DNA of 64,000 nucleotides from positions 1 through 64,000 of the forward strand of contig JAGTRT010000004.1 of NCBI GenBank assembly GCA_018261895.1, given 5' to 3'. This DNA is from Pseudomonadota bacterium (GTDB lineage Bacteria > Pseudomonadota > Gammaproteobacteria > Burkholderiales > Rhodocyclaceae). The notes beneath the pieces were generated by a model. That model ran no database searches and was not told the DNA's origin. It worked only from the letters and a program-made list of their open reading frames with translations. Shown here one piece after another: positions 3,755 to 63,655 of the stretch (positions are counted from its first letter, which is position 1; each line of letters starts with the position of its first letter). A program made the translations under genes and the position numbers.

Positions 3755-3790
3755 CACGGTCAACCGGAAAAAAAGGCCAAAATTGAAATC
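3755..3790 (+). repeat. 36-bp dispersed element, copy 1 (sub-type A)
   Basis: CACGGTCAACCGG followed by an A-run, GGCCAAAA and TTGAAATC. It lies 10 bases after the exbD stop and upstream of the sensor kinase. Confidence 0.9.
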
Positions 3791-3950
3791 CAGCTGAAAG
3801 GAGCCGACGCAGCGAAACACGACATTGGCAAAACTGAAAATCTGCGCAATATTACCTATGACTTATGTAATAACTCTGGGAAAATAGCGGGATACGTTTA
3901 CTCCTTGCCTTTGTCGTGTTGTCGTTTTCCATCAGGTCCGTTTTCCAATC

Positions 3951-6530
3951 ATGAGTCCAGCCCGCCGCGCCCGCGTATTGTTGGTTATCGCGCTGGCGGT
4001 TGCCAACCTGCTCGTTCTTGTCCTGGCCATGTATTCGCTGGAACGCAGCAGGACGCTCTACGAAGAGCAGGCAAAAACGCTGACGCAGAATGTCGTCGGC
4101 TCCCTGGACCAATCGGTTTCCGGCAGCATTCGCAGCATCGACCTCGCCCTCCATGCCATCGTCGATGAAATGGAGCAGCAGCTGGCCTCGGGTCATTTCG
4201 ACGAAGCCGCGATCAACGCCTACATCGCCCGCCAGCAAGCGCGTCTGCCCGAACTCGAAGGGCTGCGCATCGCCGACGCCTCCGGGCTGGTCTACCTCGG
4301 GACCGGTGTCAGGAAAAGCGATGCGGTGTCCTGGGCCGACCGCGACTATTTCATTTACCACCGCGACAATCCCGACGGTGGGCTGCACTTCCGCAAGCCC
4401 CGCCTGGGCCGCGTCGCCAAGCAGTTCATCGTCAATTTCTCGCGTCGCTACAACGACCGCGATGGCCATTTCGCCGGCGTCATCTCGGCCCCGATCGCCA
4501 CGGCCTATTTCTCCGAACTCCTCAAGCAATACCAGCTTCCGCCCGACAGCACCGTGCTCCTGCGCGACGCCGATCTCGGCCTGGTAGCCCGTGCCCCGGA
4601 AATGCCCGGACACCCGTCGGGCGACATCGGCAACACCAACGTATCGCCGGAACTTCGCCGCCTGCATGAATCCGGCAGCCGTTTCGCCACCTATTACAAT
4701 TCAAACTCACCGGATGGCCACCAGCGCATGCTGTCTTTCCGTCGCCTCAATAACGTCCCGATGGTCGCCATCGTCGGCATTTCCAGCGATCACTACATGG
4801 CTGGCTGGCGCGCCGAGGTTTACAAGACGGCGGGCATGGTCGCCTGTTTCCTGCTGCTTTCCGTGCTGCTCGGCATGCTCCTGCTGCGCTCGCTGACGCG
4901 CTCGGAGCAGGACCAGATCCAACTGGGCCTCAGCGAAGGAAAATTGCGCTCCATCATCGAAACCGAGCCGGAGTGCGTCAAGCTGCTGGACACCGAGGGG
5001 CACCTGCTGCAAATGAACCCGGCCGGCCTGGCGATGATCGAGTCACCGTCGCTGGCGCAGGTCGCCGGACGGTCAGTCTTCGATCTCATCGCACCCGAGG
5101 ATCGCCAGTCCTTCGTCGACTTCCATGGACGCGTGATCAAAGGCCAAAGCGGCACCCTTGAGTACGGGATCGTCGGCCTCAACGGCACGCGCCGGACCAT
5201 GGAATCGCACGCCGTGCCCATCCAGATTGCCGGCCAGGTCGCCCACCTCGCCGTGACCCGCGATATTTCGGCGCGCAAACAGGCCGAACGCGAACTCGAA
5301 TCCTATCGCGACCACCTGGAACTGCTGGTCAAGGCCCGCACGGCCGAGCTCAGTACCGCCAAGAATGTGGCCGAAGCGGCGAGCCGGGCGAAAAGCACCT
5401 TCCTCGCCAACATGAGCCACGAGTTGCGCACGCCGCTCAACGGCATCATCGGCATGATCCGCATGGCGCGCGCCCGGATGGCCGACGACAAGGGCAAGGA
5501 GCAGCTCGACAAGGCCAAGTTCGCCGCCGACCACCTGCTCTCGATCATCAACGACATCCTCGACATTTCGAAAATCGAAGCCGACCGCCTCGAACTCGAA
5601 ACGACCGATTTCAAGCTCCTGCCCGTCCTCGAGAGCCTGATGAGCCTGCTCGGCGAAAAAGCCACGGCCAAGGGCCTCGAACTGCGTACCGACCTGCCGC
5701 CACACCTCACCGAAACAGCCTTCACCGGCGATCCGCTGCGGGTCGGGCAAATCCTCATCAACCTGGTCGCCAATGCCATCAAATTCACCGAACACGGCAG
5801 CATCAGCATTCACATTACCGAACGCGAAGTAACCGGGGAAAGCAGCCTGCTGCGTTTCGAAGTCATCGACACCGGTATCGGCCTGAGCCCCGAAGACCGC
5901 GCCCGAATCTTCTCCGCCTTCGAACAGGCCGACAGCTCGATGACCCGCAAATACGGCGGCACCGGCCTCGGCCTCGCCATCAGCAAGCGCCTCGTCCAGC
6001 TCATGGGCGGCGAAATCGGTGTCGACAGCGTCGAAGGTCAAGGCAGCACCTTCTGGTTCGAAATCACCCTGCCGAAGGCCGCCGGCGCGGTTGCCGACCA
6101 GGCACATGCGGCCCTGGAAAACCTGGCCAATGAACTGATTCGCCTGCACACCGGCAAACGCATCCTGCTCGTCGAAGACGAACTCATCAACCGGGAAGTG
6201 GCCCTCAACATGCTCGAACACGTCGGCCTGATCACCGACATCGCCGGCGACGGCGAACAGGCCGTGCAATGCGCGCAGCAGCACGAATACGCGCTCATTC
6301 TCATGGACATCCAGATGCCCGTCATGAACGGTCTGGACGCCACGCGCGCCATCCTCGCCGACACGAAGAACAGCCAGACGCCGATCATCGCCATGACCGC
6401 CAACGTCTTCACCGAAGACCGGGCCAACTGCCTGGAAGCCGGCATGAAAGGCTACATCGGCAAGCCCTTCCAGCCCGAACGCCTGTACCAGACGCTACTG
6501 ACCTGGCTGTCGGCCGACCGCCCGAACTAA
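3951..6530 (+). CDS. Hybrid sensor histidine kinase (Cache-PAS-HisKA-HATPase-REC)
   Basis: An 859-residue membrane sensor. A TM helix at about 10-29 and a second at about 286-307 bracket a periplasmic Cache-type sensor region. A PAS domain follows (about 325-440), then HisKA with the H-box [12 protein letters not shown] (His490). The ATPase domain has an N-box NLVANAIKF and G-boxes DTGIGLSP and [11 protein letters not shown]-terminal receiver has LLVEDE and the phospho-acceptor Asp786 ([13 protein letters not shown]). The ligand is unknown. Phosphate could pass to a separate partner since no Hpt domain is visible. It appears monocistronic. Confidence 0.92.
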
Positions 6531-6605
6531 GCAACCGACCACCGGCCCGTTTTGCCGGCGCCCGCCCATCTGCGAGAATGCGGCTTTTCCCGCTTTCCTC
6601 CGACC

Positions 6606-6968
6606 ATGATCCAAGGCCAGTTCCGCGCATCCGTCCTGCAAGTCCCCGCCGACGTCACCCCCCTCAAGCTGCGCGGCTACCTGCGCAAGGAAATCGAGGC
6701 CGTGCAGGCGACCGCCGTCAATCAGGAAGACATCATCGTCGTCCGCCTCTTCGTCCTCGAAAAAATCCTCTTCGGCCTCGGCGCCCGGAAAGTCGACAGC
6801 ATCCTCAACGGCATCGTCGGCAAATGCCCCAACATCCAGCGCATCGAACTCGAAGCCCTCTCCCGCCCCCTGACCGCCGAAGAAATGCAGGAAGCCGCCG
6901 CCGACGCCCAAGCCACCGTCCAGGCCCTCAGCGAACGCGTCATGGCCTCCGGCGCCAAGCTGGGCTGA
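6606..6968 (+). CDS. Conserved-looking small protein of unknown function
   Basis: A 120-residue soluble protein that I do not recognise. It has no signal peptide or membrane helix. The first part mixes basic and hydrophobic residues (LRGYLRKEIEAVQAT) and the C-terminal 40 residues are Ala/Glu-rich and probably helical. The ATG at 6606 is the first plausible start; an upstream in-frame ATG at 6552 overlaps a likely promoter region. Its last 12 codons (SERVMASGAKLG) recur as a detached fragment at 11147-11185, so its 3' end belongs to a larger repeated block. Confidence 0.6.
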   Translation: MIQGQFRASVLQVPADVTPLKLRGYLRKEIEAVQATAVNQEDIIVVRLFVLEKILFGLGARKVDSILNGIVGKCPNIQRIELEALSRPLTAEEMQEAAADAQATVQALSERVMASGAKLG

Positions 6969-7051
6969 GCCCAAACGCCGTCTGAAGCGGCATCTCGCCC
7001 CCGCTAGCATCCTTTGACGGTCAACCGGAAAAAATGGCCAAAATTGAAATC
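6963..7051 (+). repeat. Long form of the dispersed element (module copy A)
   Basis: A module of about 55 bases starting GGCTGAGCCCAAACGCCG, running into CCTTTGACGG and then the 36-bp element. Related modules lie at 7991-8083 and 11178-11268. This copy begins inside the last codons of the preceding gene. Confidence 0.75.
7016..7051 (+). repeat. 36-bp dispersed element, copy 2 (sub-type A)
   Basis: GACGGTCAACCGG, A-run, TGGCCAAAA, TTGAAATC. It lies between convergent genes. Confidence 0.9.
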
Positions 7052-7401
7052 GGTCACCTGGACAGCAGGTGACAAGCCGGATTGTTCTAGTTGTTGCTTG
7101 CTTCGCTGATGGCATCGATGGCCTTCACCCGCGAAAAGCCCTTGCGCCAGGCAATGGCCACTCGCCTGGATGGCAGAGGAACCTCAAAGAAACGATTGGC
7201 GTCAGACCCAAATTTTTTCGGGGGAAAAATGAGTCGTCGCCAATTAGCGACGAGCGAAACCCATCAAAATCGCCATATGGCAGCCGCTCATGCAAATGAT
7301 GTCGCCATAAAACGACGATGGCCCACCAAATTTTGGTAGGCCATCGCATTTTCGGGCGTTTCTACCGCCGGCAAGCGACGGTAGTGACCCAGCACCGTGA
7401 C
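7052..7401. other. Gene-free region between convergent genes
   Basis: Several short open frames occur here, but none has a convincing start or composition. The only structure I see is the terminator hairpin at 7316-7347. Confidence 0.5.
7316..7347. terminator. Hairpin terminator
   Basis: CGATGGCC.ACCAAA and TTTGGT.GGCCATCG form a long stem. It is followed by CATTTT on the + strand and lies 55 bases beyond the stop of the minus-strand Cache gene. It could work in both directions. Confidence 0.65.
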
Positions 7402-7848
7402 TTACTTGTAGTAACCCACCGCGCAGACCTGATCACCAATTTTGGTAACGTAGCTATATTTTTGTACCGCTTCAGCTGAACCAGGACGAGGCCACATGTA
7501 CGAAACCTCGGAGATGCTGCCATCCTTTGCCGCGTCGTAGAGCTTGGCGCCAACGGGCTCCCCCGTCTTGCTCACCAGATCCTTCATACTCTTTCCGGTC
7601 AGGCTCGGATGCGCCGTAAAGTTGCCGTCAGGGCCGCCGCAGAAGGGATAGAGGTCACGATCCCGAAAGCCGTTTTCGCCCTTGGCCATTTGGGCCAGCG
7701 CAGTCGGCTTGTCCGCCTTGACTGCGGAAATGGCCTTTTCCAGCATTGCCTTTGCTTCAGTGGCGTTGCCAAATTCTCCTGCGCTAATTGCCGCTGTACT
7801 GAATCCGCTAGCGATAGCGACCAGACTCATTGCGATGATTTTTTTCAA
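7402..7848 (-). CDS. Periplasmic single-Cache domain protein
   Basis: A 148-residue exported protein. Residues 1-23 form a signal peptide (MKKIIAMSLVAIASGFSTAA). The rest matches a small Cache domain seen alone in the periplasm: EAKAMLEKAISAVKADK, FRDRDLYPFC, GNFTAHPSLTGKSM and SYVTKIGDQVCAVGYYK. Such domains bind small ligands or support chemotaxis, but this one has no signalling domain attached. The start is TTG, supported by AGGAG 6 bases upstream. A relative with two copies of this domain lies at 58152-59018 next to a quinoprotein dehydrogenase. Confidence 0.82.
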   Translation of the reverse strand: MKKIIAMSLVAIASGFSTAAISAGEFGNATEAKAMLEKAISAVKADKPTALAQMAKGENGFRDRDLYPFCGGPDGNFTAHPSLTGKSMKDLVSKTGEPVGAKLYDAAKDGSISEVSYMWPRPGSAEAVQKYSYVTKIGDQVCAVGYYK

Positions 7849-7990
7849 TTGGGCTCCTTTTTTGTGGATTTATTGCCGTCACCGATGGGTAACGGTCAGT
7901 CCTATCCACCGCAAGATTAATGCCAATTGAATTTGACACCCGGCTCAGTATCCGTGGTGCCCACTCAGGGGTCGGGTACTCGAGAAAAAT

Positions 7991-8083
7991 AGGGGCTGAG
8001 CCCAAACGCCGCCTGACGCGGCTTCACGCCCCCCGGCTGGACCCTTTGACGGTCTACCGGAAATTTTGGCCAAAATCGAAATC
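7991..8083 (+). repeat. Long form of the dispersed element (module copy B)
   Basis: Starts GGGGCTGAGCCCAAACG, shares CGCCTGACGCGGCTTCACGC and GGCTGGACCCTTT with copy C, and ends in the 36-bp element. It lies between the divergent Cache and OLD genes. Confidence 0.75.
8048..8083 (+). repeat. 36-bp dispersed element, copy 3 (sub-type B)
   Basis: GACGGTCTACCGG then AAATTTTGGCC, AAAATCGAAATC. The AAATTTT form makes the second half palindromic. Confidence 0.9.
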
Positions 8084-8127
8084 GCAAGCCTCCCGCATCT
8101 GACGTAACAACCCGAAAAGCTGTGTCA

Positions 8128-8151
8128 GTGTGACGCAAGACCCTGTCACAC
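8128..8151. promoter_or_regulatory. 7-bp inverted repeat upstream of the OLD gene
   Basis: GTGTGAC and GTCACAC are perfect inverted arms 10 bases apart, 149 bases before the OLD start. It is a candidate operator or small hairpin. There is no T-run. Confidence 0.4.
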
Positions 8152-8299
8152 AACTTTTGAATGGCATAATTAGCCAAATACATAAGCATAGGGGGCGGCC
8201 TTGGCTGCGCTGATACCGGCAATCGGCACCTGCGTCTGCGAGATGGACGCAAAGATCATTTTCGATCTCGTCAGCGCGCCTCAGAAAGGCTGAAATCAA

Positions 8300-10063
8300 A
8301 TGAAATCCAGCGTATTTCTCCACGGCGTTGCGCTAGCAAACTATCGCGGAATCGGTAACAAAACTGCTTACATTGGACCATTCCGGCGGTTCAACTTCAT
8401 GATCGGTGCCAACAACGCGGGCAAATCATGTGTTCTGCACTTTATCGCCAATCATCTCCACTCCCATGTATGTGAAAACCAGCACCGATATAACGACAGA
8501 AGAGAACGAAAAGAACTCGACTCACTGGACGTTCACCTTGGAGCATCTCGTCCCCAGGTAAAAATGGGGATTGGCATACCTACGGAATTTGTACTCAGAA
8601 GTTTTGCAACGGAAAATCCAAACCTGAAAGGCCGTGGTAATTTGCCCATATTCGCCGAATCGATCGTCAAGAAAGTTGCATCGGGCGATTTGATCTGGCT
8701 ATCCCGTACAGGTCCAGAAGGCCAGCTTGCTTTGATGATTGAGCAGTCGCTTGAAGCACTGAAAAGTGCTGGAGAGCCAGAAGAATGGAGTCGGTTATGG
8801 ACTGCTCTTACAAACCAACGGCAGGGAGGAATCGATCAACATTGGATTCCAGAAACGATGCGGGCATTGGTCTCCTCAATCTCGCTTGCCATGCCATCCA
8901 TTTCCCTGATACCCGCAATTCGGCAGATTTCCCCAAAAGGTCAGGAATTTTCCGGGTGGACTGGCGCAGGGTTAATAGAGGAGCTAGCTCGCTTACAGAA
9001 CCCAAAGGTACATGAACGAGATCGCTTAGAGAAATTCCATAAAATAAATGGATTTCTACAGGCAGTAACCGAGCGAGCCAGCGCGCGCATTGAAATTCCC
9101 CATGACCGCGAGTGCGTTCTCGTACATATGGATGACAAGGTATTGCCGCTCGAGTCTTTAGGTACGGGTATCCACGAGGTCGTAATGCTTGCAGCCTTTT
9201 GTACCTTGATGGAGAAACAGATCGTCTGTATCGAAGAGCCTGAAATCCATTTGCACCCCTTGCTGCAGCGTCGGTTGGTTCAGTACCTTGAAGAGAAGAC
9301 CGATAACCAATATTTCATCGCAACTCACTCCGCAAGCCTGATCGACACAGCAGATGCTGCAGTCTTTCATGTCCGCAATAGCTCAGGCTGTACCGAGATC
9401 GCTCCGGCAACCAACTCGGCTAAACGCTTCGATGTATGCCGGGATTTGGGATACAAGGCATCTGACATCCTTCAATCGAACGCGGTTATCTGGGTTGAAG
9501 GGCCATCTGATCGTATTTACCTGCAGCATTGGATAAAGTCGATTGCACCAGAACTACGCGAAGGTGTCGATTTCTCCATCATGTTTTACGGAGGACGTTT
9601 GCTTAGTCACTTGCGTGCAGACGATGCAGACTCAGCAAATGAAGACGTTCAATCGTTAATTGCCGTCAGGCAACTGAATCGCCACCTAGCCGTGGTGATC
9701 GATAGCGACAAAGATAGTGAAGAAAAACCGGTCAATGCCACAAAGGTTCGAATTCTTGAAGAACTCTCAAAAAATGGCGGTATAGGCTGGCTCACGGCAG
9801 GACGGGAAATCGAGAACTATGTCCCCAAAGAGTTAATGACAAAAGCTCTTCGGGTCGTTTACTCGAAATTTGATCGCCGTATCAAGACAGGGAAATTTGA
9901 TCATGTACTTCCATTTAAGATTGCCGATGGACAAACCATCAAGGATGTAGATAAGGTCAGAGTGGCCAAAGCAGTATGTGCGGAAGAAGCAGACCTGAGC
10001 GTTCTAGACCTTAAAACACGCATTGCAAACTTAGTTGATCTGATTCGAAAAGCTAACAGGTAA
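8300..10063 (+). CDS. OLD-family ATP-dependent nuclease (AAA ATPase + TOPRIM)
   Basis: A 587-residue protein of the overcoming-lysogenization-defect family. The N-terminal ABC-type ATPase has Walker A GANNAGKS (about residues 37-44), signature-like LESLGTGIHEVV, Walker B IVCIEEPEIHLHP and H-loop IATHSASLID. The C-terminal TOPRIM nuclease domain begins at VIWVEGPSDRIY and continues to VVIDSDKDSE. OLD proteins are nucleases; many act in phage defence, alone or with a helicase partner such as GajB. No helicase or reverse transcriptase is adjacent, so it looks like a stand-alone OLD. By eye its codon use is much more AT-rich than its neighbours, suggesting acquisition by transfer. Copies of the 36-bp element flank the region. 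Confidence 0.88.
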   Translation: MKSSVFLHGVALANYRGIGNKTAYIGPFRRFNFMIGANNAGKSCVLHFIANHLHSHVCENQHRYNDRRERKELDSLDVHLGASRPQVKMGIGIPTEFVLRSFATENPNLKGRGNLPIFAESIVKKVASGDLIWLSRTGPEGQLALMIEQSLEALKSAGEPEEWSRLWTALTNQRQGGIDQHWIPETMRALVSSISLAMPSISLIPAIRQISPKGQEFSGWTGAGLIEELARLQNPKVHERDRLEKFHKINGFLQAVTERASARIEIPHDRECVLVHMDDKVLPLESLGTGIHEVVMLAAFCTLMEKQIVCIEEPEIHLHPLLQRRLVQYLEEKTDNQYFIATHSASLIDTADAAVFHVRNSSGCTEIAPATNSAKRFDVCRDLGYKASDILQSNAVIWVEGPSDRIYLQHWIKSIAPELREGVDFSIMFYGGRLLSHLRADDADSANEDVQSLIAVRQLNRHLAVVIDSDKDSEEKPVNATKVRILEELSKNGGIGWLTAGREIENYVPKELMTKALRVVYSKFDRRIKTGKFDHVLPFKIADGQTIKDVDKVRVAKAVCAEEADLSVLDLKTRIANLVDLIRKANR

Positions 10064-10133
10064 GTCACAGATATCTAGCGGGCGTTTTCCGACAATTGCC
10101 AGCACCGCACCCTGCAAGAACCAAGGAGCCACC

Positions 10134-11078
10134 ATGACCCTGTCCATGGACGAATTCCGCAAACAGCTTCAGGAAGCCTTGCATGCCGCGCAGGAGCAGG
10201 CAAGGCGGGCTGGGCCGCAGCCTTGGCATGGGTTCTGGTATCACCGGCCAGACAGGGATTTTCCGCCGCGTAGCGTGCAGCGGCCAGAGGAGTACGCGGG
10301 CGGTGAAAACCTGGCCATTGCCTGCACTCAGACCGATCTGCCGTCCAAGGCCCAGAAGGCACTGGTGCAGAGCTGGTGCGAGTTCTTGCCGACGCTGAAG
10401 GGCGTGCGCTATCTGTGGTTCCAGTCGCGCACGCCGCAGGAGTTGTTCGACGCGGCTTGCCGCATGCCCTCGCTCGAAGGCCTTTACGTGAAATGGAGCG
10501 GCATTTCCTCGCTGGCTGCGCTGCCGGCGCTGAGCAGGCTGCAGGCGCTGCATCTCGGCAGTTCGCCGAGCGTGACGAATATCGACGTGCTCGGCGAGAT
10601 GTCGTCGCTGCGCTGGCTGGAACTCGATAATCTGAAGACGATCACCGATCTCTCGCCGCTCGCCAGTCTGACGGGGCTCGAAGGCCTCGGCTTTTCGGGC
10701 GCTGAGGGCAAGCGCCAGACGCTGAACACACTGGCGCCGCTCGCTGCGCTGACCCGGCTGGTCTGGCTGCACCTTGGCGCGATTCACGTTGCCGATGGCT
10801 CCCTGCGCCCGCTCGGCAACCTCAAGGCATTGCGCTGGGTCGGGCTGGGCAATTTCTTCGATGTCAGCGAGTTCGCCTGGCTGGCCGCCGCGCTGCCGGA
10901 CGTGACGTCGGACTGGACGAAACCTTATCTCGACCTGAGCCACCTCGGCATCCGCTGCAAGAAGTGCCGCAGCCATGCGATGGTGATGCTGACCGGCAAG
11001 GGGCGCGGCACGATCTGCCCGGAATGCGACGCCGCGAAGCTGCAAAAGCAGATGGCGGCCTTTAAGCCAGCCCCATGA
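10134..11078 (+). CDS. Leucine-rich-repeat protein with C-terminal CxxC pairs
   Basis: A 314-residue cytoplasmic protein without signal peptide. From about residue 95 to 260 it has a run of irregular leucine-rich repeats (PSLEGLYVKWS, LSRLQALHLGSS, MSSLRWLELDNL, LTGLEGLGFSG, LTRLVWLHLGA, LKALRWVGLGN). The C-terminus holds CKKC and CPEC 27 residues apart, likely a small zinc ribbon. LRR proteins usually bind proteins; no partner is evident. AAGGAG lies 6 bases before the ATG. It is 70 bases after the OLD gene but has host-like GC content, so a functional link is unproven. Confidence 0.75.
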   Translation: MTLSMDEFRKQLQEALHAAQEQARRAGPQPWHGFWYHRPDRDFPPRSVQRPEEYAGGENLAIACTQTDLPSKAQKALVQSWCEFLPTLKGVRYLWFQSRTPQELFDAACRMPSLEGLYVKWSGISSLAALPALSRLQALHLGSSPSVTNIDVLGEMSSLRWLELDNLKTITDLSPLASLTGLEGLGFSGAEGKRQTLNTLAPLAALTRLVWLHLGAIHVADGSLRPLGNLKALRWVGLGNFFDVSEFAWLAAALPDVTSDWTKPYLDLSHLGIRCKKCRSHAMVMLTGKGRGTICPECDAAKLQKQMAAFKPAP

Positions 11079-11101
11079 AGCCGCTGCCGGCCCTCGATTG
11101 G

Positions 11102-11137
11102 CATTTCGATTTTGGCTGATTTTTCCGGTTGACCGTA
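11102..11137 (-). repeat. 36-bp dispersed element, copy 4 (sub-type A, diverged)
   Basis: Read on the minus strand it is TACGGTCAACCGG, AAAAATCAGCC, AAAATCGAAATG. It is one of the less perfect copies and faces copy 5. Confidence 0.8.
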
Positions 11138-11146
11138 AAAACCTTC

Positions 11147-11185
11147 TGCGAACGCGCCTTGGCTTCGGGCGGCAAGCTGGGATGA
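11147..11185 (+). pseudogene. Detached 3' fragment related to the gene at 6606-6968
   Basis: The 13 codons read CERALASGGKLG-stop. The intact gene at 6606-6968 ends SERVMASGAKLG-stop, and the nucleotides downstream also match. There is no start or upstream coding homology. The fragment begins 10 bases after copy 4 of the 36-bp element, which is consistent with rearrangement at the element. Confidence 0.65.
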
Positions 11186-11268
11186 GGCCAAAGGCGGCCT
11201 GACGCGGCTTCACGCCCCCGGCTGGACCCTTTCACGGTCAACCGGAAAAAACGCCCAAAATTGAAATC
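11178..11268 (+). repeat. Long form of the dispersed element (module copy C)
   Basis: GGATGAGGCCAAAGGCGGCC, CTGACGCGGCTTCACGC, GGCTGGACCCTTT and the 36-bp element. It matches copy B closely and extends left into the gene remnant. Confidence 0.75.
11233..11268 (+). repeat. 36-bp dispersed element, copy 5 (sub-type A)
   Basis: CACGGTCAACCGG, AAAAAACGCCC, AAAATTGAAATC. Confidence 0.9.
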
Positions 11269-11422
11269 GTTGGCGACGCGTCGACCAGCCTGACGCCCGC
11301 GCCTCGAAGCAATCGATTGCGTGGTTGATGGCAGCCCAGGCTTCGCGCCGAAAAAACGCTGGCTGGAGCGAACCTGGGCGACAGCACGCGCGCCGGCGAT
11401 CTTCTGCGCGACAACAAATCTA

Positions 11423-11438
11423 TGATAAATTCATATCA
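11423..11438. promoter_or_regulatory. TGATA-N6-TATCA inverted repeat upstream of the peroxidase gene
   Basis: A 5-6-5 dyad in an AT-rich stretch 132 bases before the start codon. The spacing is that of CRP/FNR-superfamily operators, although the half-sites do not match the FNR consensus. Confidence 0.35.
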
Positions 11439-11569
11439 AATCTCATTTGGCATAAATCGCCATCTCCTTGAGATTTTATTTCACAGAAAATCAATAACTT
11501 GAATAACCCGCCGCGTTTTTGCGGATATGCGAACCCATCCCGTTCGTTACCAACAGAAGGAAGATCCAC

Positions 11570-12565
11570 ATGAAAAAACAGACACTGCTTGCCTGCCTGA
11601 TCGCCACCAGCACCTCGCTCGCCCTTGCGGCGACGGGCGAACCGATCCAGCCGATCCCGCCGGCGAAAATCACGAATCCGGCCCTGGTCGAGCTGGGCAA
11701 GAAGCTTTATTTCGATCCGCGCCTGTCCAAATCCGGCTTCATTTCGTGCAACTCCTGCCACAACCTGTCGATGGGCGGCACCGACAACATCAAGACCTCC
11801 ATCGGCCACAACTGGCAGGAAGGCCCGATCAACGCGCCGACCGTGCTCAATTCCAGCCTCAATCTCGCCCAGTTCTGGGACGGCCGCGCCGCCGACCTCA
11901 AGGCGCAGGCGGGCGGACCGATCGCCAATCCCGGTGAAATGGCCTTCACCCACCCCTTGGCGGTCGAGGTGCTGCAATCCATCCCCGGCTACGTTGCCGA
12001 CTTCAAGAAAGCCTTCGGCACCGAGAAAGTCACCATCGACGAAGTCACCAAGGCCATTGCCGCCTTCGAGGAGACGCTGGTCACGCCCAATTCCCGCTTC
12101 GACAAGTGGCTGAAGGGCGACAAGAAGGCGCTGAGCGCCAACGAGGTGGCCGGCTACAAGCTGTTCAAGGAAACGGGTTGCGTCGCCTGCCACAACGGCC
12201 CGGCCGTCGGTGGCAACTCCTTCCAGAAGATGGGCCAGGTCGAGGCGTACAAGGCTTCCAGCCCGGCCGAGGGGCGTTTCGCCGTGACCGGCAAGGACGC
12301 CGACCGCTTCAATTTCAAGGTGCCGACCCTGCGCAACGTCGAAATGACCTATCCGTACTTCCACGACGGCGCCGCCAACACGCTGCCGGAAGCTGTCGAC
12401 ACGATGGCCCGCATCCAGTTGGGCAAGAAGTTCACGCCGGATGAAAACGCCAAAGTCGTCGCCTTCCTCAAGACCCTGACCGGCGAGCAGCCGAGCTTCA
12501 GGCTGCCCGCCCTGCCGCCTTCGGCCGACGCCACGCCGCGCCCGAAGCCGTTCGAGAAGAAGTAA
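11570..12565 (+). CDS. Di-haem cytochrome c peroxidase
   Basis: A 331-residue periplasmic protein that reduces H2O2 with electrons from small cytochromes. A signal peptide (MKKQTLLACLIATSTSLALA) precedes two CxxCH haem sites: CNSCH (about residue 58) and CVACH (about residue 204). The CCP/MauG layout is present: KKLYFDPRLSKSG, NAPTVLNSSLN, FWDGRA, then KVPTLRNVEMTYPYFHDGA. The ATG at 11570 has GAAGGAAG upstream; an in-frame extension to 11519 is rejected because it would precede the signal peptide. A terminator follows. Confidence 0.93.
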   Translation: MKKQTLLACLIATSTSLALAATGEPIQPIPPAKITNPALVELGKKLYFDPRLSKSGFISCNSCHNLSMGGTDNIKTSIGHNWQEGPINAPTVLNSSLNLAQFWDGRAADLKAQAGGPIANPGEMAFTHPLAVEVLQSIPGYVADFKKAFGTEKVTIDEVTKAIAAFEETLVTPNSRFDKWLKGDKKALSANEVAGYKLFKETGCVACHNGPAVGGNSFQKMGQVEAYKASSPAEGRFAVTGKDADRFNFKVPTLRNVEMTYPYFHDGAANTLPEAVDTMARIQLGKKFTPDENAKVVAFLKTLTGEQPSFRLPALPPSADATPRPKPFEKK

Positions 12566-12579
12566 GTCAGCGGCGCATT

Positions 12580-12605
12580 GCCAGGGGGCTTCGGCCCCCT
12601 TTTTC
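12580..12605 (+). terminator. Rho-independent terminator after the peroxidase gene
   Basis: AGGGGGC-TTCG-GCCCCCT followed by TTTT, 15 bases after the stop. Confidence 0.85.
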
Positions 12606-12622
12606 GTTTCCGCCGGGCATTC

Positions 12623-12658
12623 CACGGTCTACCGGAAATTTTGCCCAAAATTGAAATC
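12623..12658 (+). repeat. 36-bp dispersed element, copy 6 (sub-type B)
   Basis: CACGGTCTACCGG, AAATTTTGCCC, AAAATTGAAATC. Confidence 0.9.
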
Positions 12659-12756
12659 CGCCCTGGCCGGATTTGCATGCTGGCTGACTGCGCCGACAAT
12701 GGCGCCGGCGTGCCGCGTCGCCTAGGATGGCGCTTTCGAATAACAAGGGGCACAGC

Positions 12757-13221
12757 ATGAAGGCGTTTCAGGATTACTACCCGGAGAACCTCGCCCACTG
12801 CTACGGCTGCGGCCGGGAGAATGGGCAGGGGCACCAGATCAAGACCTTTTGGGACGGCGACGAGACGGTCACGCGTTTTCAGCCGCGCCCGGAGCACACG
12901 GCGATTCCGGGCTTCGTTTATGGCGGCCTGCTGGCCTCGTTGATCGATTGCCACGGCACGGGGACGGCCGCCGCCGCGATGTATCGCGCCGAAAACCGCG
13001 ACATGGACAGCCTGCCAGCCTTTCGTTTCGTCACCGGCTCGCTGCAGGTCAGCTACCTGAAGCCGACACCGATGGGGCCGGAACTCGAAATTCGCGGCAA
13101 GGTGAAGGAGATCAAGGGCCGCAAGGTGGTGGTCGAGGCGACGGTGTTTGCCGAGGGCGTGGCGACGGCGCGCGGCGAGGTGGTGGCGCTGCAGATGCCG
13201 GATACCTTCGTCGCCAAGTAG
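12757..13221 (+). CDS. PaaI-type hotdog-fold thioesterase
   Basis: A 154-residue cytoplasmic protein of the 4HBT/PaaI superfamily, which hydrolyses acyl-CoA thioesters. Visible family features are CYGCGRENGQG near the N-terminus, the active-site region HTAIPGFVYGGLLASLIDCHGTG (given here in pieces: PGFVYGG then SLIDCHG), and the C-terminal strand pairs SYLKPTPMG and VEATVFAEG. The ATG at 12757 has AAGGGG upstream; an in-frame ATG 10 codons earlier lacks one. The substrate cannot be read from sequence. Confidence 0.82.
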   Translation: MKAFQDYYPENLAHCYGCGRENGQGHQIKTFWDGDETVTRFQPRPEHTAIPGFVYGGLLASLIDCHGTGTAAAAMYRAENRDMDSLPAFRFVTGSLQVSYLKPTPMGPELEIRGKVKEIKGRKVVVEATVFAEGVATARGEVVALQMPDTFVAK

Positions 13222-13298
13222 GCACTCGCGGCGTCTGTCGCAAAGCCTGCAATGCCCCGACGCCGAAAAATTTAATCCTTTTGAATCAATGCTGTGCG

Positions 13299-13325
13299 GA
13301 CGGGCATCGCTCTTGCATGCCCGTC
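13299..13325. promoter_or_regulatory. 8-bp inverted repeat just before the CooA-like gene
   Basis: GACGGGCA and TGCCCGTC are perfect arms separated by 11 bases and end 4 bases before the start codon. It could be an autoregulatory site or a leader hairpin masking translation initiation; no Shine-Dalgarno is obvious. Confidence 0.4.
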
Positions 13326-13329
13326 TTGC

Positions 13330-13998
13330 ATGGATACCATCGCCCGCCACGCCAGCCCCGAACACGCCGCCATGGCGCATAGCGCGGCGCCGTCCGGGCT
13401 GCTCGACGGCTTTGCCCGGCGCGAGTTGGCGAAGGGCTACCTGCTATCCACCCCGGCCAGCCCGCACAACCAGGTGCTGATGGTGCATTCCGGCCGCCTG
13501 CGCGTCTATCTGGCCGGCGACAACCGCGAACTGAACCTGAGCTTCCTCGAACCCGGCGACATCTACACGACGCACACGCCGACCTATGTCGAAGCCGTGG
13601 TGGCGAGCAGCATCTGGCTCATCGACACACGGACCTTCGCGCAGAAGCTGGCCACCGACCCGTCGGTCACGCCGGTCATGATGCGCGTCATGGGCCGCCT
13701 GCTCAGCAACGCCGTCGGACTCATCGAGGACCTCGCCTTTCGCGAGGTGCCCGCCCGCCTCGCCCGCTTTCTCTGCCAACTGGCCGAACGGCGCGGCCTG
13801 CGCCAGGAACACGGCTGGCTCGTGCCGCTCGAATTCAGCATGCAGGACATCGCCAGCCTGCTCGGCACGACGCGGCAAACCGTCTCGTCGCTGATCAACC
13901 AGTGGGAGCGCGACGGCATCCTCCTGCGCCAGAGCCGGCGCAGCCTGCTGCTGCCGTCGCTGGAAAGTCTCAAGGCACGCTGTTCGCCCATTCCCTGA
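13330..13998 (+). CDS. CooA-like CO-sensing Crp/Fnr-family regulator
   Basis: A 222-residue transcription factor, the same length as Rhodospirillum rubrum CooA. The effector domain aligns with CooA through GRLRVYLAGDNREL, LEPGDIYTTHTPTYVEA and DTRTFAQKL (CooA: GRLRVYLVGEEREI, DIRTFEQKL). CooA binds haem through Cys75 and His77. Here His82 aligns with His77, while Thr80 replaces the redox-switch Cys75, as in some other CooA homologues. The C-terminal helix-turn-helix is MQDIASLLGTTRQTVSSLIN. The next gene is a cowN homologue, which fits a CO-response role. Haem binding is inferred. Confidence 0.78.
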   Translation: MDTIARHASPEHAAMAHSAAPSGLLDGFARRELAKGYLLSTPASPHNQVLMVHSGRLRVYLAGDNRELNLSFLEPGDIYTTHTPTYVEAVVASSIWLIDTRTFAQKLATDPSVTPVMMRVMGRLLSNAVGLIEDLAFREVPARLARFLCQLAERRGLRQEHGWLVPLEFSMQDIASLLGTTRQTVSSLINQWERDGILLRQSRRSLLLPSLESLKARCSPIP

Positions 13999-14002
13999 AA
14001 AA

Positions 14003-14018
14003 CGTCGGCCAGCCGACG
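14003..14018. promoter_or_regulatory. CGTCGGC/GCCGACG palindrome
   Basis: A 16-bp perfect dyad with a CA centre, 4 bases after the CooA-like stop and 58 bases before the cowN start. It may be an operator or a weak hairpin. Confidence 0.35.
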
Positions 14019-14043
14019 GACAGCCGGCGCCGGCCCGGCTAAA

Positions 14044-16145: not shown

Positions 16146-16636
16146 ACCTGATCACTTAAGATAGAAAGGATGAAATACGATTTTTATCATATTTCATCCT
16201 TTATAAAGAAAAATTATTTTTGCCAAACCTGAAAACTATTTTTCTGACCATTGAAAGAAAACACCATGGTGTATTTTGTTCGCAGCGACCAGATGTTCAG
16301 AACCCGCTCCCTGGCAGCCAAATTTCCCGAGCGTTTTCATACAGCCTCTCCGATGACATGTCGGTGAACAATCCTCCGGAACGGCCGCTCCGCATCTGAA
16401 ACCAGCCACCAAAGCGCTGATGCCCCGAAAGGCTGCAATGGGCTACTGCCGTTCGGCATTGGCCGGTCAAGTTGATGAATCGTCCTGTTCAGATCGGATG
16501 CGATTCAGCGTTCAACCCAGCGCAATTCCCCAGCCCACCGCCGATCTCACGGTCAACCGGAAAAAAGGGCCAAAATTGAAATTTTGATGGCGGCAAAACG
16601 CGTATCCTTTCCAGCCGTGCCCGTTTTTCCGTTGCA
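16146..16636. other. Intergenic region between MCP and MFS genes
   Basis: About 490 bases. The first 110 are AT-rich and likely hold the chemoreceptor promoter. 16260-16540 shows no supported gene or structure. Copy 7 of the 36-bp element lies at the right end. Confidence 0.5.
16548..16583 (+). repeat. 36-bp dispersed element, copy 7 (sub-type A)
   Basis: CACGGTCAACCGG, AAAAAAGGGCC, AAAATTGAAATT, 54 bases before the MFS start. Confidence 0.9.
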
Positions 16637-20340: not shown

Positions 20341-20597
20341 GCCCGCTCGGAAATTTCATTTTTGGGCATTTTTTCCGGTTGACCGTGAGGCGACTGGCGG
20401 CCACGAGCGGACACTTGGTTACCCCTCTCAAAAGCAGACACTGCCCCGCGGCAGTTGTCCGGCATATTGATGTTGTTATACTGACAGTCGATATTCCAAG
20501 TGACTGAAAGCAATGTGCTTAGAGCAACAAATACGGCGTCAACAATATCAATTGTTATACGGACCCCTGCGTCCGTGTAAACACTGTTAGAGCCCGT
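20341..20597. other. Left edge of the cassette cluster
   Basis: No gene is supported. It contains copy 8 of the 36-bp element, then two GTTATAC core-like sites (20475-20481 and 20554-20560), a hairpin TTATACGGAC/GTCCGTGTAA, and the core site GTTAGAGC at 20586-20593 that starts the first cassette. It looks like remains of attI or attC sites. Confidence 0.5.
20352..20387 (-). repeat. 36-bp dispersed element, copy 8 (sub-type A)
   Basis: On the minus strand: CACGGTCAACCGG, AAAAAATGCCC, AAAAATGAAATT. It lies 11 bases after nudC. Confidence 0.9.
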
Positions 20598-23988: not shown

Positions 23989-24024
23989 CATTTCAATTTT
24001 GGGCAAAAATTCCGGTTGACCGTC
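23989..24024 (-). repeat. 36-bp dispersed element, copy 9 (sub-type B)
   Basis: On the minus strand: GACGGTCAACCGG, AATTTTTGCCC, AAAATTGAAATG. It lies 14 bases after bfd. Confidence 0.9.
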
Positions 24025-26354: not shown

Positions 26355-26390
26355 AATTTCAATTTTGGGCAAAATTTCCGGTAGACCGTG
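26355..26390 (-). repeat. 36-bp dispersed element, copy 10 (sub-type B)
   Basis: On the minus strand: CACGGTCTACCGG, AAATTTTGCCC, AAAATTGAAATT. It lies between the convergent feoA and selD genes. Confidence 0.9.
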
Positions 26391-29522: not shown

Positions 29523-31685
29523 TTATCGCCCGGACCGCCAACGCTTGAGCAGCAACGAGTTCGAGACGACAGACACCGAACTCATCGCCATGGCAGCCCC
29601 CGCCACCACCGGATTCAGCAAACCCAAGGCAGCGAGCGGAATTCCCATCACATTGTAGATGAAAGCGAAGAAAAGATTTTGTCGAATTTTGCCCAAAGTG
29701 GCCGCCGATAGGTCGATTGCATCGACCACCCCCATCAGGTCGCTGCGTATCAATGTCAAATCCGCCGCCTCCACCGCCGCGTCGGAGCCGGCACCAATGG
29801 CGAAACTCACATCGGCCGCCGCCAGCGCGGGCGCATCGTTGATGCCATCACCCACCATGGCCACCAAACCGCCGCCGGACTTCAATTCATTGATGGCCGC
29901 CGCCTTGTCGCCGGGCAGGATACCGGCGCGGAACTCGTCGATCCCCGCCGCGGCAGCAATGGCGGCCGCCGTGGCCACATTGTCTCCGGTCAACATGACA
30001 ATCCGAAGACCACGCTGGCGCAGGCGCTCGACCGCCGCCCGCGACGTCGGCCGCAAGGCATCCGCGACCGCAAACAGCGCCAGCACCGTCTCGCCCTCGG
30101 CCAGCACGACCACCGTCTTGCCGGCCCGTTGCAAGGCATCGACCGCGTCGTCGGATGCCAGGCCCAGCCAGCCCGGCGAACCCAGGCGCAATGGCCGTCC
30201 ATCGACCTCGCCCTCGACGCCCAGGCCCGGCGTGGATTTGAAATTTGCGGCTTTTTTCCGGTTGACCGTCAAATCCGCCGCGACGATCGCCCGGGCCAGC
30301 GGATGCTCGGAATTTTCTTCCAGCGCGGCGGCCAGCGTCAGCGCTTCCTCGCGCCCAAGGCCGAAGGCGACGACATCGGTCACTTGCGGCGTGCCGCAGG
30401 TCAGCGTTCCGGTCTTGTCCAGCGCCAGCACCGAAATCTTCTCGGCCCGCTCCAGCGCCTCGGCATTCTTGACCAGAATGCCCGCCCGCGCGCCCTGCCC
30501 GGTACCGACCATGATCGCCGTCGGCGTCGCCAGCCCGAGCGCGCACGGACAGGCGATGACGAGCACGGCAACCGCATTGACCAGCGCCTCGGCAAAGTCG
30601 CCGGCGTACCACCACCAGCCAGCAAAGGTGGCGAGCGCAATGGCGCACACCGTCGGCACGAAAATGGCCGAAATCCGGTCAGCCAGCCGCTGCACGGGCG
30701 CCTTCGACCCCTGCGCCTCGCCGACCATGCGGATGATGCCGGCGAGCAGCGTGTGTTCGCCGACGCCGGTCGCCCGGCAGCGCATCGCGCCCTGGCCGTT
30801 GGCCGTGGCCGCGAACACCTTGTCGCCGGCCCGCTTGGCCACCGGCATGCTCTCGCCGGTCAGCATCGCCTCGTCCACGCTCGATTCGCCGTCGATCAAT
30901 TCGCCATCAACCGGCACGCTTTCGCCCGGCCGAACGAGGAAGACATCGCCCGGCATCAACGCCTCGACCGGCATGTCGACCCACTGCCCGTCGCGCTCGA
31001 CGCGCGCCGTCTTCGGCTGCAGGCGGATCAGCGATTCGATGGCCTCCGAGGTCCGCGCCTTGGCCCGCGCTTCAAGCAGCTTGCCAAGCAGGACCAGCGT
31101 GATGACCGCCGCGCCGCCTTCGAAATAGACATGCTGATCGAGCCCGAACAGCGTCACCACCGTCGAGAAGCCCCAGGCCATGCTCGTCCCGAGAGCAACC
31201 AGCACATCCATGTTCGCCCCGCCACCGCGCAGGGACTTGAAGGCGCCGTCGTAGAAACGCCAGCCGATCCAGAACTGGACCGGCGTCGCCAGCGCCAGTT
31301 GCAACCAGCGCGGCAATTCGTTGTGGTGGCCGTGTTCGCCGAACATGAAGAACATCTGCCCGACAAGCGGCAGGGTCAAGGCAACCGATATCCAGAAACG
31401 CCGGATTTCGCTGTGGTAAATGCGCTGCTTCTCGGCCTTTTCGCGCGCCCGGGTCTGCGCATCGACGACGGCCGCCGAGAATCCCGCCTTGGCCACGGCC
31501 GCGACGACCGCGGCTTCGTCCGCCCCCGCCGACAGGCGCACCCGCGCCCGTTCGGCCGCCAGATTGACATTGGCCTGCATGCCGGCCTGGCGATTCAGCA
31601 CCTTCTCCAGACGCGCCGAACAGGCGGCACAGGTCATGCCGCCGATGGCAAACTCGACGACCCGCCCCGTGCCCGCTTCGGTCAT
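29523..31685 (-). CDS. copA: Copper-exporting P1B-type ATPase
   Basis: A 720-residue ATPase. The HMA domain has GGMTCAAC (about 15-22), the membrane metal site is CPC ([12 protein letters not shown]), the phosphorylation loop is DKTGTLT, and the hinge is [10 protein letters not shown]. Start ATG at 31685 overlaps the usp stop by 4 bases; an upstream in-frame start at 31706 lies inside usp. Next to hemN/fnr it might serve cbb3-oxidase copper delivery (CcoI-like) or detoxification. Residues about 472-484 ([13 protein letters not shown]) are encoded by a copy of the 36-bp dispersed element, in a region that is variable and surface-exposed in the family. Confidence 0.93.
30235..30270 (-). repeat. 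36-bp dispersed element, copy 11 (sub-type A), inside copA
   Basis: On the minus strand: GACGGTCAACCGG, AAAAAAGCCGC, AAATTTCAAATC. It is read in frame as [11 protein letters not shown]. Confidence 0.85.
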
Positions 31686-37089: not shown

Positions 37090-37125
37090 GACTTTGATTT
37101 TGGGCGTTTTTTCCGGTTGACCGTG
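37090..37125 (-). repeat. 36-bp dispersed element, copy 12 (sub-type A)
   Basis: On the minus strand: CACGGTCAACCGG, AAAAAACGCCC, AAAATCAAAGTC. Confidence 0.88.
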
Positions 37126-39380: not shown

Positions 39381-39416
39381 GATTTCAGTTTTGGCCAAAT
39401 TTTCCGGTCGACCGTG
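39381..39416 (-). repeat. 36-bp dispersed element, copy 13 (sub-type B)
   Basis: On the minus strand: CACGGTCGACCGG, AAAATTTGGCC, AAAACTGAAATC. It lies 27 bases upstream of the pqqU-like start. Confidence 0.88.
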
Positions 39417-40471: not shown

Positions 40472-40807
40472 GATGATCTCCGGAACGGGTTGGGCAGACG
40501 CGCTGCGCGCTGAACTGACTCTAAAAGGCTAGATGCAAATCGCATAGCTGGCAAGGAAAGTTAGCCATTGATGCGCTTCACCTCCAACCGGGCTCAACGG
40601 AAAAACCGCTCCCCGTCGTCCCCGCCCAACGCGAATCGGGCGCGGCACGATTTCAATTTTGGGCAAAATTTCCGGTTGACCGTCAAAGCACATCCAAAGC
40701 CCCATCGATCAGGCGCCCAAAGCGAAAAATCCAAGCAGAATGCATGACAAATGGAATTACTCTGGGCTAGAGTGCGCCGTTTTCATTTCATTCAGGACTG
40801 ATCGCGG
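40472..40807. other. Divergent intergenic region
   Basis: No gene is supported. Copy 14 of the 36-bp element is in the middle and an AT-richer promoter-like stretch precedes the AAA gene. Confidence 0.5.
40649..40684 (-). repeat. 36-bp dispersed element, copy 14 (sub-type B)
   Basis: On the minus strand: GACGGTCAACCGG, AAATTTTGCCC, AAAATTGAAATC; closest to the sub-type B consensus. Confidence 0.92.
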
Positions 40808-49189: not shown

Positions 49190-50595
49190 GCGTATGCCTC
49201 CGGGGATGCTTGCAGGAGAGAGTCGGGCAGGCAGGCGCGGATACAGAATCCGCCGCCGGCTGCCGTTTCGAATTCGAGATGGCCGCCCAGGGCGGCGATG
49301 CGTTCGCCCATGCCGGCCAGGCCGAGGCCGCAACCGCGCTGCGCCGAAGGCTGGGCGGAACGTCCGACGCCGTTGTCGGCCAGCGTCAGTTGCAGCCAGC
49401 CGGCGACACGGGTCACGGCGAGGTCGACCTGCGTCGCCCGGGCGTGGCGCACGACATTGGTCAGGCCTTCCTGGACGATGCGGACGACGGTCATGGCCAG
49501 GTCGTCGGCCACGGCTTGCTCGCCGATGACCAGGCGGCTGTTGAGGGCGATTTCCGGATGCTGCACCTGCCAGCCGGCGAGCTGGCGTTCGAGCGTGGCG
49601 GCCAGTGTGTTGCCGGCGGCTGGACGCAGGCGATGCAGGATGTTGCGCACGCCGTCCTGCATCTCGCCGGTGACGGCGACAATGCCCTGGGCCGGCACAT
49701 GCAGCGACGGTGCGTCGGCGGTGCGCTGGACGATGGCGCCGGCCAGCGCGCGCACGGCGGTAATGCCCTGGGCCAGCTCGTCGTGCAGTTCGCGGGCGAT
49801 GACGCGGCGCTCTTCCTCGAGCCGGGCGTGCATCTGGCGATCGACCTCGCGGGCGCTTTCGAGACGAACGTTCTCGTCCACCGCTTCGCCGAGGCGGTCG
49901 GCCATGCCGTTGAAGGCGCGCGAGATGCGGCCGAGTTCCGGCGTCGCGAAAACAGGCAGGCGGGTATCGAAACGGCCGCGACCGGTGCGGTCGAGGGCGC
50001 GCATGATCTCGGCGAGCGGACTCAGGGCCCGGCCCAGCGCCGTGCGGGTGGCGACGAAGAGCGCGGCGAGCAAGGCCACTGCCCAGCCGGCCATGGCCGC
50101 CAGATCGTCCCAGGCGTCGAGGATGGCGCGCGAATCGTCGGGGCGCAGGCTCAGGTTGTAGCCGTCGATGGCCAAGGTGCGCACCGGCAGGCCGCTGGCC
50201 AGCAGGTCGGCAAACCACGCCGGCGCTGCCCGGCCGGCCTTGTAGGTCGGCGCCGGCGAGCGGTAGATCGTTTCACCGGCGGCATTGCGGATGTCGAGTT
50301 CGTTGGCGCGCACCCGGCCGATGGCGCGGGCGACGCCGAGCAGACGTTCTCCCCTCGCAATCGGTGGCACATCCTGAATCTCGCCGATGACGGCCTTGAG
50401 CCATTGCTCGGATACCCGCGTCGCCGCCTCCACCTCTTCATGGATGGCGTTGCGCGTGGCGTGCAGCCAGAAACCGGCCATCACCAGCAACAGGCAGGCC
50501 GCCAACCCGGTGAGGACGAGGCCGACGCGGGTGTGCAGGCTCAACCGCAGGCTTGCACGGTCAACCGGAAAAAAGGGCCAAATTTGAAATGTCAC
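49186..50595 (-). CDS. NarX/UhpB-type sensor kinase with repeat-encoded N-terminus
   Basis: A 469-residue inner-membrane kinase. TM1 is at about 25-46 and TM2 at about 170-190, bracketing a periplasmic sensor of about 125 residues. HAMP follows, then HisKA_3 with ARELHDELAQGITAVRALAG and an ATPase end with ADNGVG and GLGLAGMGERI. The GTG start (50593-50595) overlaps the receptor stop as GTGA and has GGGGGAGG just upstream. The first residues after the start (TFQIWPFFPVDRA) are encoded by a 36-bp dispersed element. Confidence 0.88.
   Translation of the reverse strand: MTFQIWPFFPVDRASLRLSLHTRVGLVLTGLAACLLLVMAGFWLHATRNAIHEEVEAATRVSEQWLKAVIGEIQDVPPIARGERLLGVARAIGRVRANELDIRNAAGETIYRSPAPTYKAGRAAPAWFADLLASGLPVRTLAIDGYNLSLRPDDSRAILDAWDDLAAMAGWAVALLAALFVATRTALGRALSPLAEIMRALDRTGRGRFDTRLPVFATPELGRISRAFNGMADRLGEAVDENVRLESAREVDRQMHARLEEERRVIARELHDELAQGITAVRALAGAIVQRTADAPSLHVPAQGIVAVTGEMQDGVRNILHRLRPAAGNTLAATLERQLAGWQVQHPEIALNSRLVIGEQAVADDLAMTVVRIVQEGLTNVVRHARATQVDLAVTRVAGWLQLTLADNGVGRSAQPSAQRGCGLGLAGMGERIAALGGHLEFETAAGGGFCIRACLPDSLLQASPEAYA
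50556..50591 (+). repeat. 36-bp dispersed element, copy 15 (sub-type A), at the kinase start
   Basis: CACGGTCAACCGG, AAAAAAGGGCC, AAATTTGAAATG on the + strand. On the minus strand it is translated as the first residues of the kinase. Confidence 0.88.
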
Positions 50596-59038: not shown

Positions 59039-59074
59039 CATTTCGATTTTGGGCAAAATTTCCGGTTGACCGTC
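59039..59074 (-). repeat. 36-bp dispersed element, copy 16 (sub-type B)
   Basis: On the minus strand: GACGGTCAACCGG, AAATTTTGCCC, AAAATCGAAATG. Confidence 0.92.
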
Positions 59075-59083
59075 AGATTCACC

Positions 59084-63361: not shown

Positions 63362-63565
63362 CGCTAGCTCCCGCAGTCCCGCCAGACAAATATCCGCAAT
63401 ATTGTAATGGTATTTTTTAACTTGATGCCATTTTTATTATTTTCATTTAACCCACGGCATGCACATCAAGTGGCACGACTTACGGCAGAACGCACCTTTT
63501 GCAATCGCAGGGGGCATCAGCGTCTACGTGATCGATTTCAAGGGCAGCGGCGCCGCCCCCGCCGA

Positions 63566-63655
63566 AAAACCCCATTTCGATTTTGGGCAAAATTTCCGGT
63601 TGACCGTCAGATTCACCCAAACTGGCCTTCGTGACCGGTTTTGCGTTGCCGGCAG
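63566..63655. repeat. 90-bp duplicated segment, copy 2
   Basis: Near-identical to 59032-59121. The terminator stem is weakened here (AACTGGCC/GACCGGTT) and the T-run is interrupted. Confidence 0.88.
63573..63608 (-). repeat. 36-bp dispersed element, copy 17 (sub-type B)
   Basis: Identical to copy 16. Confidence 0.92.

Follow-up and report, generated by a model that had tools for sequence, protein, structure and literature searches.

A dispersed motif with species dialects in the Azonexus/Dechloromonas group as a candidate DNA uptake sequence

Uptake sequences are reported from two families, mainly on host mucosa (PMC7811141, PMC5031613, PMC1626085). PMC1626085 describes the uptake signal sequence (USS) of the Pasteurellaceae as a core followed 3' by two segments rich in AT, present at about one copy per kb in two dialects and arising by mutation rather than by copying. 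The rigidity of the USS A-tracts, together with a slight bend, is linked to uptake in PMC7811141, and the extended USS forms appear in PMC12616744 as AAAGTGCGGTCAATTTT and AACAAGCGGTCAAATTT. The DNA uptake sequence (DUS) of the Neisseriaceae is also a genome-wide tag with species dialects (PMC3630211); PMC12616744 and PMC1626085 present it as a continuous motif of at most about 13 nt with a CTG core and no flanking motifs. Here we describe a 36-bp element dispersed through a 64,000-nt stretch of Rhodocyclaceae DNA (contig JAGTRT010000004.1, positions 1 to 64,000; hereafter the window), which belongs to a 3.3-Mb genome in 93 contigs that is 85% complete (G000). By analogy, the element is probably a DNA uptake sequence working like the Pasteurellaceae USS. 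On the best reading, the Azonexus/Dechloromonas group, a genus of mostly environmental bacteria, would then represent a third family with self-specific DNA uptake.

The initial annotation placed 17 copies in the window, seven on the + strand and ten on the - strand, and all 17 were recovered at those coordinates and on those strands. A position weight matrix (PWM) built from them returned exactly the same 17 when the window was scanned above 8 bits (lowest score 48.2), and the reversed matrix returned none at that threshold. Matches to CGGTCNACCGGAAA with at most two mismatches numbered 22, compared with a mean of 2.3 in shuffles. The claim that 15 copies are intergenic holds for the mostly intergenic placement and not for the count, which is 16 of 17 outside genes by the present calls; these come from a simple home-made caller that errs in places, as with the doubtful call at 1-1305 on the - strand. 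The copies are listed below. Each was located by coordinate check and PWM, and its surroundings were read from gene calls or comparison between genomes.

3755..3790, + strand, motif copy, intergenic (gene calls)
7016..7051, + strand, motif copy, intergenic (gene calls)
8048..8083, + strand, motif copy, intergenic (gene calls)
11102..11137, - strand, motif copy, intergenic, with the next copy 95 bp away in the opposite orientation
11233..11268, + strand, motif copy, intergenic (gene calls)
12623..12658, + strand, motif copy, intergenic, with a copy at the orthologous place in congener G002 (comparison)
16548..16583, + strand, motif copy upstream of a major facilitator superfamily transporter gene, with weaker matches ahead of the orthologous gene in G033 and G028 and one at a greater distance upstream in G003 (comparison)
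20352..20387, - strand, motif copy just past the stop of a NUDIX (NADH pyrophosphatase-like) gene, the same place being occupied in G002 and G003
23989..24024, - strand, motif copy about 110 bp upstream of a feoB gene
26355..26390, - strand, motif copy in a convergent gap (the gene to the left is weakly called)
30235..30270, - strand, motif copy within a P-type ATPase gene (29523-31706, - strand), in a segment of that gene whose length varies among congeners
37090..37125, - strand, motif copy, intergenic (gene calls)
39381..39416, - strand, motif copy, intergenic (gene calls)
40649..40684, - strand, motif copy in a divergent gap (gene calls)
50556..50591, + strand, motif copy between two - strand genes (gene calls); its overlap with an open reading frame depends on the start codon and arises if a GTG start is taken
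59039..59074, - strand, motif copy in a convergent gap (gene calls)
63573..63608, - strand, motif copy, intergenic (gene calls)

The copies at 59039-59074 and 63573-63608 are identical, and the 12-base flanks on each side are nearly so; one of the two may belong to a larger local duplication.

The 36-bp element is one dialect of a genus-wide motif with the core [AG]CGGTC[AG]AC and A/T tracts at about +16 and +26. A logo of 87 copies from 445 kb of sampled G000 DNA indicated that the motif is longer than 36 bp, with about 5 bp more at the 5' end, a T at -2 in 98% of copies, and ACGGTCAACCGG nearly invariant. A/T tracts occupy logo positions 14-19, 25-29 and 32-35, with GC between the first two. 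The tract at 14-19 mostly reads AAAAAA, AAATTT, AAAAAT or AAAATT. Among 114 copies scoring at least 48 in G000 and G002, the tract is all A/T in 102; TpA occurred in 5 of these, where column shuffling gives a mean of 43. The A-run and TTTT copies had been proposed as two discrete subtypes, a division replaced here by mixed A/T tracts that avoid TpA; because of this composition and avoidance, the two look like alternative spellings of a rigid A-tract.

Logos of the dialects have a common layout: approximately A.T[GC][CT][CT], the core, a weak A/T tract at about +12 to +17, a GC block at about +20 to +22 and a strong A/T tract at +24 to +27. Pooled over 397 G-dialect sites, A/T content has its maxima at +16 and +26, a spacing of ten bases. 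Single changes in the core, mapped by their association with the distant tract, indicated that C1, G2, G3, T4, A7 and C8 are needed, that position 5 is mostly C and that position 6 is tolerant. Whether position 0 is G or A depends on the dialect, each base being typical of its own set of species. Variation within the motif is concentrated at certain positions, each with its own alternatives, around a conserved inner core with species dialects.

Enrichment beyond the window was borne out: a 23-bp pattern with at most two mismatches finds 244 and 247 copies on the two strands of G000, about 491 in all, and its control finds none. We then counted an exact pattern (core, 16 bases, WWW) in 76 genomes of the Azonexus/Dechloromonas group. 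Forty of these hold 412-2072 copies each, with roughly equal strands in the rich genomes, and the other 36 hold 11-183; backward-read controls gave 7-35. The distribution is bimodal, with no count between 183 and 412, and density reaches about 0.6 copies per kb. Intermediate counts such as 183 in G097 and 164 in G005 could be decay after loss, which is a guess. Outside the genus, 118 genomes of the family, from 67 genera, gave 2-63 copies against 2-55 in controls with a pattern by which some sites are scored twice; a few genomes stand at 2-4 times control (G130 63/21, G204 41/11, G151 45/16, G202 35/13, G124 54/26).

The long form is spread unevenly among 35 congeners (G002 480, G003 181, G033 109, G005 70, G028 55, G016 37, G013 19, G011 12, the remainder 0-8) and was absent from all 24 genomes of other families of the order. 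The unevenness is partly due to dialect. Among congeners with few long-form copies, the 9-mer [AG]CGGTC[AG]AC exceeds its reversed control in G029 (165 vs 26, in 270 kb), G008 (77 vs 20), G013 (54 vs 20), G033 (26 vs 9) and G003 (20 vs 6); it is unenriched in G005 (6 vs 12) and G034 (5 vs 7).

The initial annotation suggested a mobile repeat resembling repetitive extragenic palindromic (REP) elements, moved by a transposase encoded elsewhere. REP elements and their REP-associated tyrosine transposases (RAYT) form a system of short, often intergenic repeats in hundreds of copies. A REP-like repeat, or one resembling miniature inverted-repeat transposable elements (MITEs), would fit the high copy number, the short length, the mostly intergenic placement in the window, the range of the long form from 0 to 480 copies among congeners and the third of coding comparisons that are gapped. 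However, no Y1_Tnp/RAYT gene (PF01797) was found in G000 (85% complete), G002 (100%), G003, G005 or G028, of which G000, G003 and G028 are incomplete assemblies; a search of 40 genus genomes found such genes in 17. No terminal inverted repeat is visible by eye in the logo.

Coding copies also speak against mobility. Sites in seven motif-rich genomes were compared with orthologues in three motif-poor ones (G034, G006, G005), giving 136 site-by-genome comparisons. The alignment was ungapped over the site in 91, of which 81 had at least one difference in the 9-bp core. The variation seen among sampled copies, concentrated at set positions with set alternatives, also weighs against mobility. From these alignments, coding copies appear to have arisen mostly by substitution, and insertion of a ready-made element would leave the ungapped two thirds unexplained. 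REP-like or MITE-like mobility was rejected on the absence of RAYT from G000 and G002 and on the ungapped orthologous sites, and we regard it as very improbable.

Six G000 coding copies were aligned with congeners individually. The copy at C16:35127 was ungapped in eight of eight, with partial motifs there, and that at C16:28283 in five of six. The remaining four (30235 in the window, C16:22584, C16:26130 and C16:31766) were ungapped in G002, and in G003 where found; among them G008 and G034 were ungapped at one site each, and other congeners had indels. Alignment varies with query length, the 30235 copy being gapped against G034 in one run and ungapped in another. Intergenic DNA of congeners was too diverged for a comparison with and without the element.

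The element proved less strictly intergenic than in the window, since 28 of the 87 sampled G000 copies share 20 bp or more with a predicted gene; in G002 (C1, 1-400 kb) 35 of 78 copies do so. Genic copies score lower than intergenic ones (median PWM score 47 vs 65 in G000, p 7e-10; 43 vs 51 in G002, p 0.003) and retain the core and the A/T pattern. Bare-core sites lay in predicted genes in 81 of 99 cases in G068, 139 of 167 in G029, 65 of 95 in G065 and 48 of 86 in G011, where coding DNA makes up 0.90, 0.89, 0.86 and 0.80 of the total, respectively; by the reversed control, from about 1/6 (G029) to about 1/3 (G068) of such sites are background. As the initial annotation held, the element occurs in both orientations with no fixed relation to gene starts or ends. 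Among gaps of at least 40 bp, G000 has 14 copies in 26 convergent gaps and 5 in 38 divergent gaps, as if promoters were avoided; the corresponding figures for G002 are 9 in 18 and 7 in 39.

That copies often lie near stop codons and in convergent gaps could point to an element acting at the RNA level, either a bidirectional terminator or the processed hairpin suggested earlier. However, eight of eight copies folded (of the 17) were no more stable than shuffles, Rfam gave no match above the gathering score in the window, and scanning positions 1-20000 for terminators gave 28, where 22.8 were expected. Many copies are genic, on both strands, and the strong A/T tracts lie on one side of the core only. 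The RNA-level explanation was rejected on the folding, Rfam and terminator results, and we give it scarcely any credence. The absence of an Rfam match also agrees with the earlier statement that no named family matches. Closely spaced head-to-head pairs occur at G000:C31:7366-7419 and G002:C1:359168-359245. Judged from sequence, head-to-head cores could form a long hairpin with a T-run before and an A-run after it, which is the reverse of the terminator arrangement.

A strand-polar signal for replication or recombination, resembling FtsK-orienting polar sequences (KOPS) or Chi, would also be genome-wide and overrepresented, and some local runs of one orientation are present. With the GC skew of sampled stretches as a stand-in for replication direction, + and - counts in positive-skew and then negative-skew stretches were 51/46 and 31/39 in G029, 23/23 and 22/9 in G008, and 8/10 and 19/17 in G013. 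In these three genomes orientation thus does not follow GC skew consistently, strands are about equal in rich genomes, and the motif varies greatly between species. KOPS-like or Chi-like polarity was rejected on the lack of a consistent strand bias against skew and is highly unlikely.

The distribution of the motif relative to foreign DNA was also informative. In G002, comEC (G002:C33:109264-144789) is split by about 33.7 kb of DNA at 51.6% GC (61.9% for C1), in which no copies occur where about 6.6 are expected (P 0.0014). Next to the break lies a serine recombinase gene, and deeper within the insert there is a phage-type integrase. Across 4-kb windows of the G000 and G002 samples, the 34 with GC below 0.59, a cut picked after viewing four bins, hold 11 copies, and the other 175 hold 153 (p 4e-4). 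By chance an A/T-rich motif should be commoner in low-GC windows, yet it is scarcer there. Newly acquired DNA, as represented by the one insert and the low-GC windows, is therefore poor in the motif. In a viral collection, a single stretch has an exact match to the 27-base long form (L304:9386-9412).

These results bear on the rival with most to commend it, that the copies are bound by an abundant protein, nucleoid-associated or chromosome-organising, which recognises the core together with the phased A-tracts, and are kept by selection for structure or silencing. Such a protein would suit a long, strongly constrained, A-tract-shaped site found across the chromosome, with two thirds of sampled G000 copies outside genes and the same place retained in otherwise diverged intergenic DNA of G002 and G003. 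However, bimodal presence within one genus and letter changes between dialects are odd for a structural protein, and many sites lie within genes. Silencing proteins usually concentrate in low-GC or foreign DNA, where copies are rarer here. We consider this explanation unlikely, though not negligible. A protein-recognised chromosomal site was among the guesses of the initial annotation, which is partly supported overall; DNA uptake was not among them.

Genes for the expected machinery are widespread. ComEC matches were found in 75 of 76 genus genomes (68 over the cut-off) and 12 of 14 controls, ComEA matches in 75 of 76 (67 over the cut-off) and 9 of 14 controls, and a ComP_DUS-family minor pilin in 70 of 76 and none of the 14 controls. 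G000 has a gene row of fimT-like (GspH), pilV, pilW, pilX, pilY1 and pilE/comP-like genes, adjoined by lytB/ispH; its pilE/comP-like protein resembles PilE of known structure (4noa).

Copy number, occurrence on both strands, a core with phased AT tracts, dialects, mutational origin and scarcity in foreign DNA together make up the signature of an uptake sequence. Several observations weigh against this interpretation. ComEC, ComEA and the ComP_DUS-family pilin also occur in motif-poor genomes and so do not discriminate, and the G000 pilE/comP-like protein may be only an ordinary PilE, with PF16732 simply marking the minor pilin PilE. Counted by hand in 51 high-quality genomes, comEC is broken (split on one contig or frameshifted) in 5 of 20 motif-poor genomes (G064, G017, G034, G090, G099) and 3 of 31 motif-rich ones (G070, G002, G086), p 0.24; G006, G008, G018 and G076 were not counted as broken because contig ends or frames were ambiguous. 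G002, G070 and G086 are thus motif-rich despite a split comEC. The genic share of bare-core sites is below the coding share of the DNA (for instance 0.56 vs 0.80 in G011), and adjacent G002 copies share a strand slightly more than expected, in 48 of 77 pairs against 40 (p 0.035).

The comparisons of coding sites also include 45 of 136 that are gapped at the site, more than in controls shifted by 60 or 90 bp (9-20 of 128-131) or with the reversed 9-mer (3 of 67). Because controls are gapped less often, either sites favour indel-prone segments or a minority have another origin. When any base is allowed at positions 0 and 6, the bare 9-mer equals its reversed control in G000 (160/160) and is barely enriched in G002 (233/209) and G013 (72/68); those positions and the tract therefore carry the signal. 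A Markov ranking of 9-mers did not place the core at the top in G029, G008, G033, G005 or G034, and this ranking lacks the power to pick out the core in the majority of congeners. Finally, we found no work on competence in these bacteria in the open-access literature, which was partly covered.

Breaks in comEC are a feature of the group in their own right. About ten congeners have the gene in two to three pieces, which on a single contig lie at most about 64 kb from each other; besides G002 these are G090, G086, G064, G070, G005, G017, G028, G099 and G035. Most breaks fall around profile positions 145-166 or about 590, which could mean that this gene for the DNA-uptake channel is a target of several mobile elements.

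If the motif is an uptake sequence, a receptor at the outer surface, probably a type IV minor pilin (FimT/GspH-like or PilE/ComP-like), would read the core, and the rigid A-tracts about one helical turn apart could help the DNA bend for entry. Fragments with good copies would be preferentially taken up and recombined, and copies would therefore accumulate by molecular drive. Outside protein-coding DNA they would approach the full 36-41 bp consensus, like those seen in the window; within genes the core and A/T pattern would be kept, and lineages that do not transform would lose the motif through mutation. A more speculative and rather improbable extension would explain why the Azonexus tag and the Pasteurellaceae USS have GCGGTCAA and downstream A/T tracts in common: the minor pilins that recognise them (FimT/PpdA-like) would be related through a common ancestor. 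Sequence-specific uptake would then be an old, repeatedly lost trait of Proteobacteria instead of separate inventions.

We found no description of an uptake motif in Rhodocyclaceae, Azonexus or Dechloromonas in the part of the open-access literature covered, and an earlier description may exist elsewhere. A third family, if true, would be a natural replicate in the debate on why uptake sequences evolve. Species of this one genus range from rich to poor, with some in between, and have several dialects, so that tests of how the motif is gained and lost, how dialects change and whether receptors coevolve can be made within it; the likeness to USS in GCGGTCAA is open to a direct receptor test.

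Other repeats were also seen. A dispersed repeat of about 235 bp at L158:5513-5749 (G000:C16:25513-25749) is absent at the orthologous place in G034; among the matches listed, it has at least eight related places in G033, some in G013 and G005 and, in part, in G034. A stretch of about 72 bp at L158:12905-12978 matches several places in G013 and G005 among the matches listed, on both strands, and is for that reason probably palindromic.

Set beside known systems, the Azonexus motif shares with REP/RAYT elements its short length, often intergenic position and hundreds of copies. It differs in that the genomes richest in the long form have no RAYT and that its coding copies appear mostly to evolve in place. 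Like the Neisseriaceae DUS, whose receptor is ComP, it is a genome-wide tag with dialects, and a ComP_DUS-family minor pilin is encoded in Azonexus. However, the motif has no evident sequence likeness to DUS, the Azonexus pilin may be ordinary PilE, and the continuous motif with a CTG core and no flanking tracts that defines DUS proper is not what we find. The closest likeness is to the USS of Pasteurellaceae such as Haemophilus influenzae and Actinobacillus pleuropneumoniae: hundreds to thousands of copies, a short core, two downstream AT segments, clade dialects and, as judged from coding copies, a mutational origin. The extended USS consensus, as given in PMC12616744, and the Azonexus G-dialect core GCGGTC[AG]AC both contain GCGGTCAA. 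The bases before the core differ, A or G may stand in Azonexus where USS has G, and the G000/G002 dialect adds a third A-tract to give 36-41 bp. In USS proper the core AAGTGCGGT or ACAAGCGGT is followed at once by an AT segment, whereas the Azonexus core is preceded by approximately T[GC][CT][CT] and its AT tracts begin at about +12 and +24, so that the part common to the two is GCGGTCAA.

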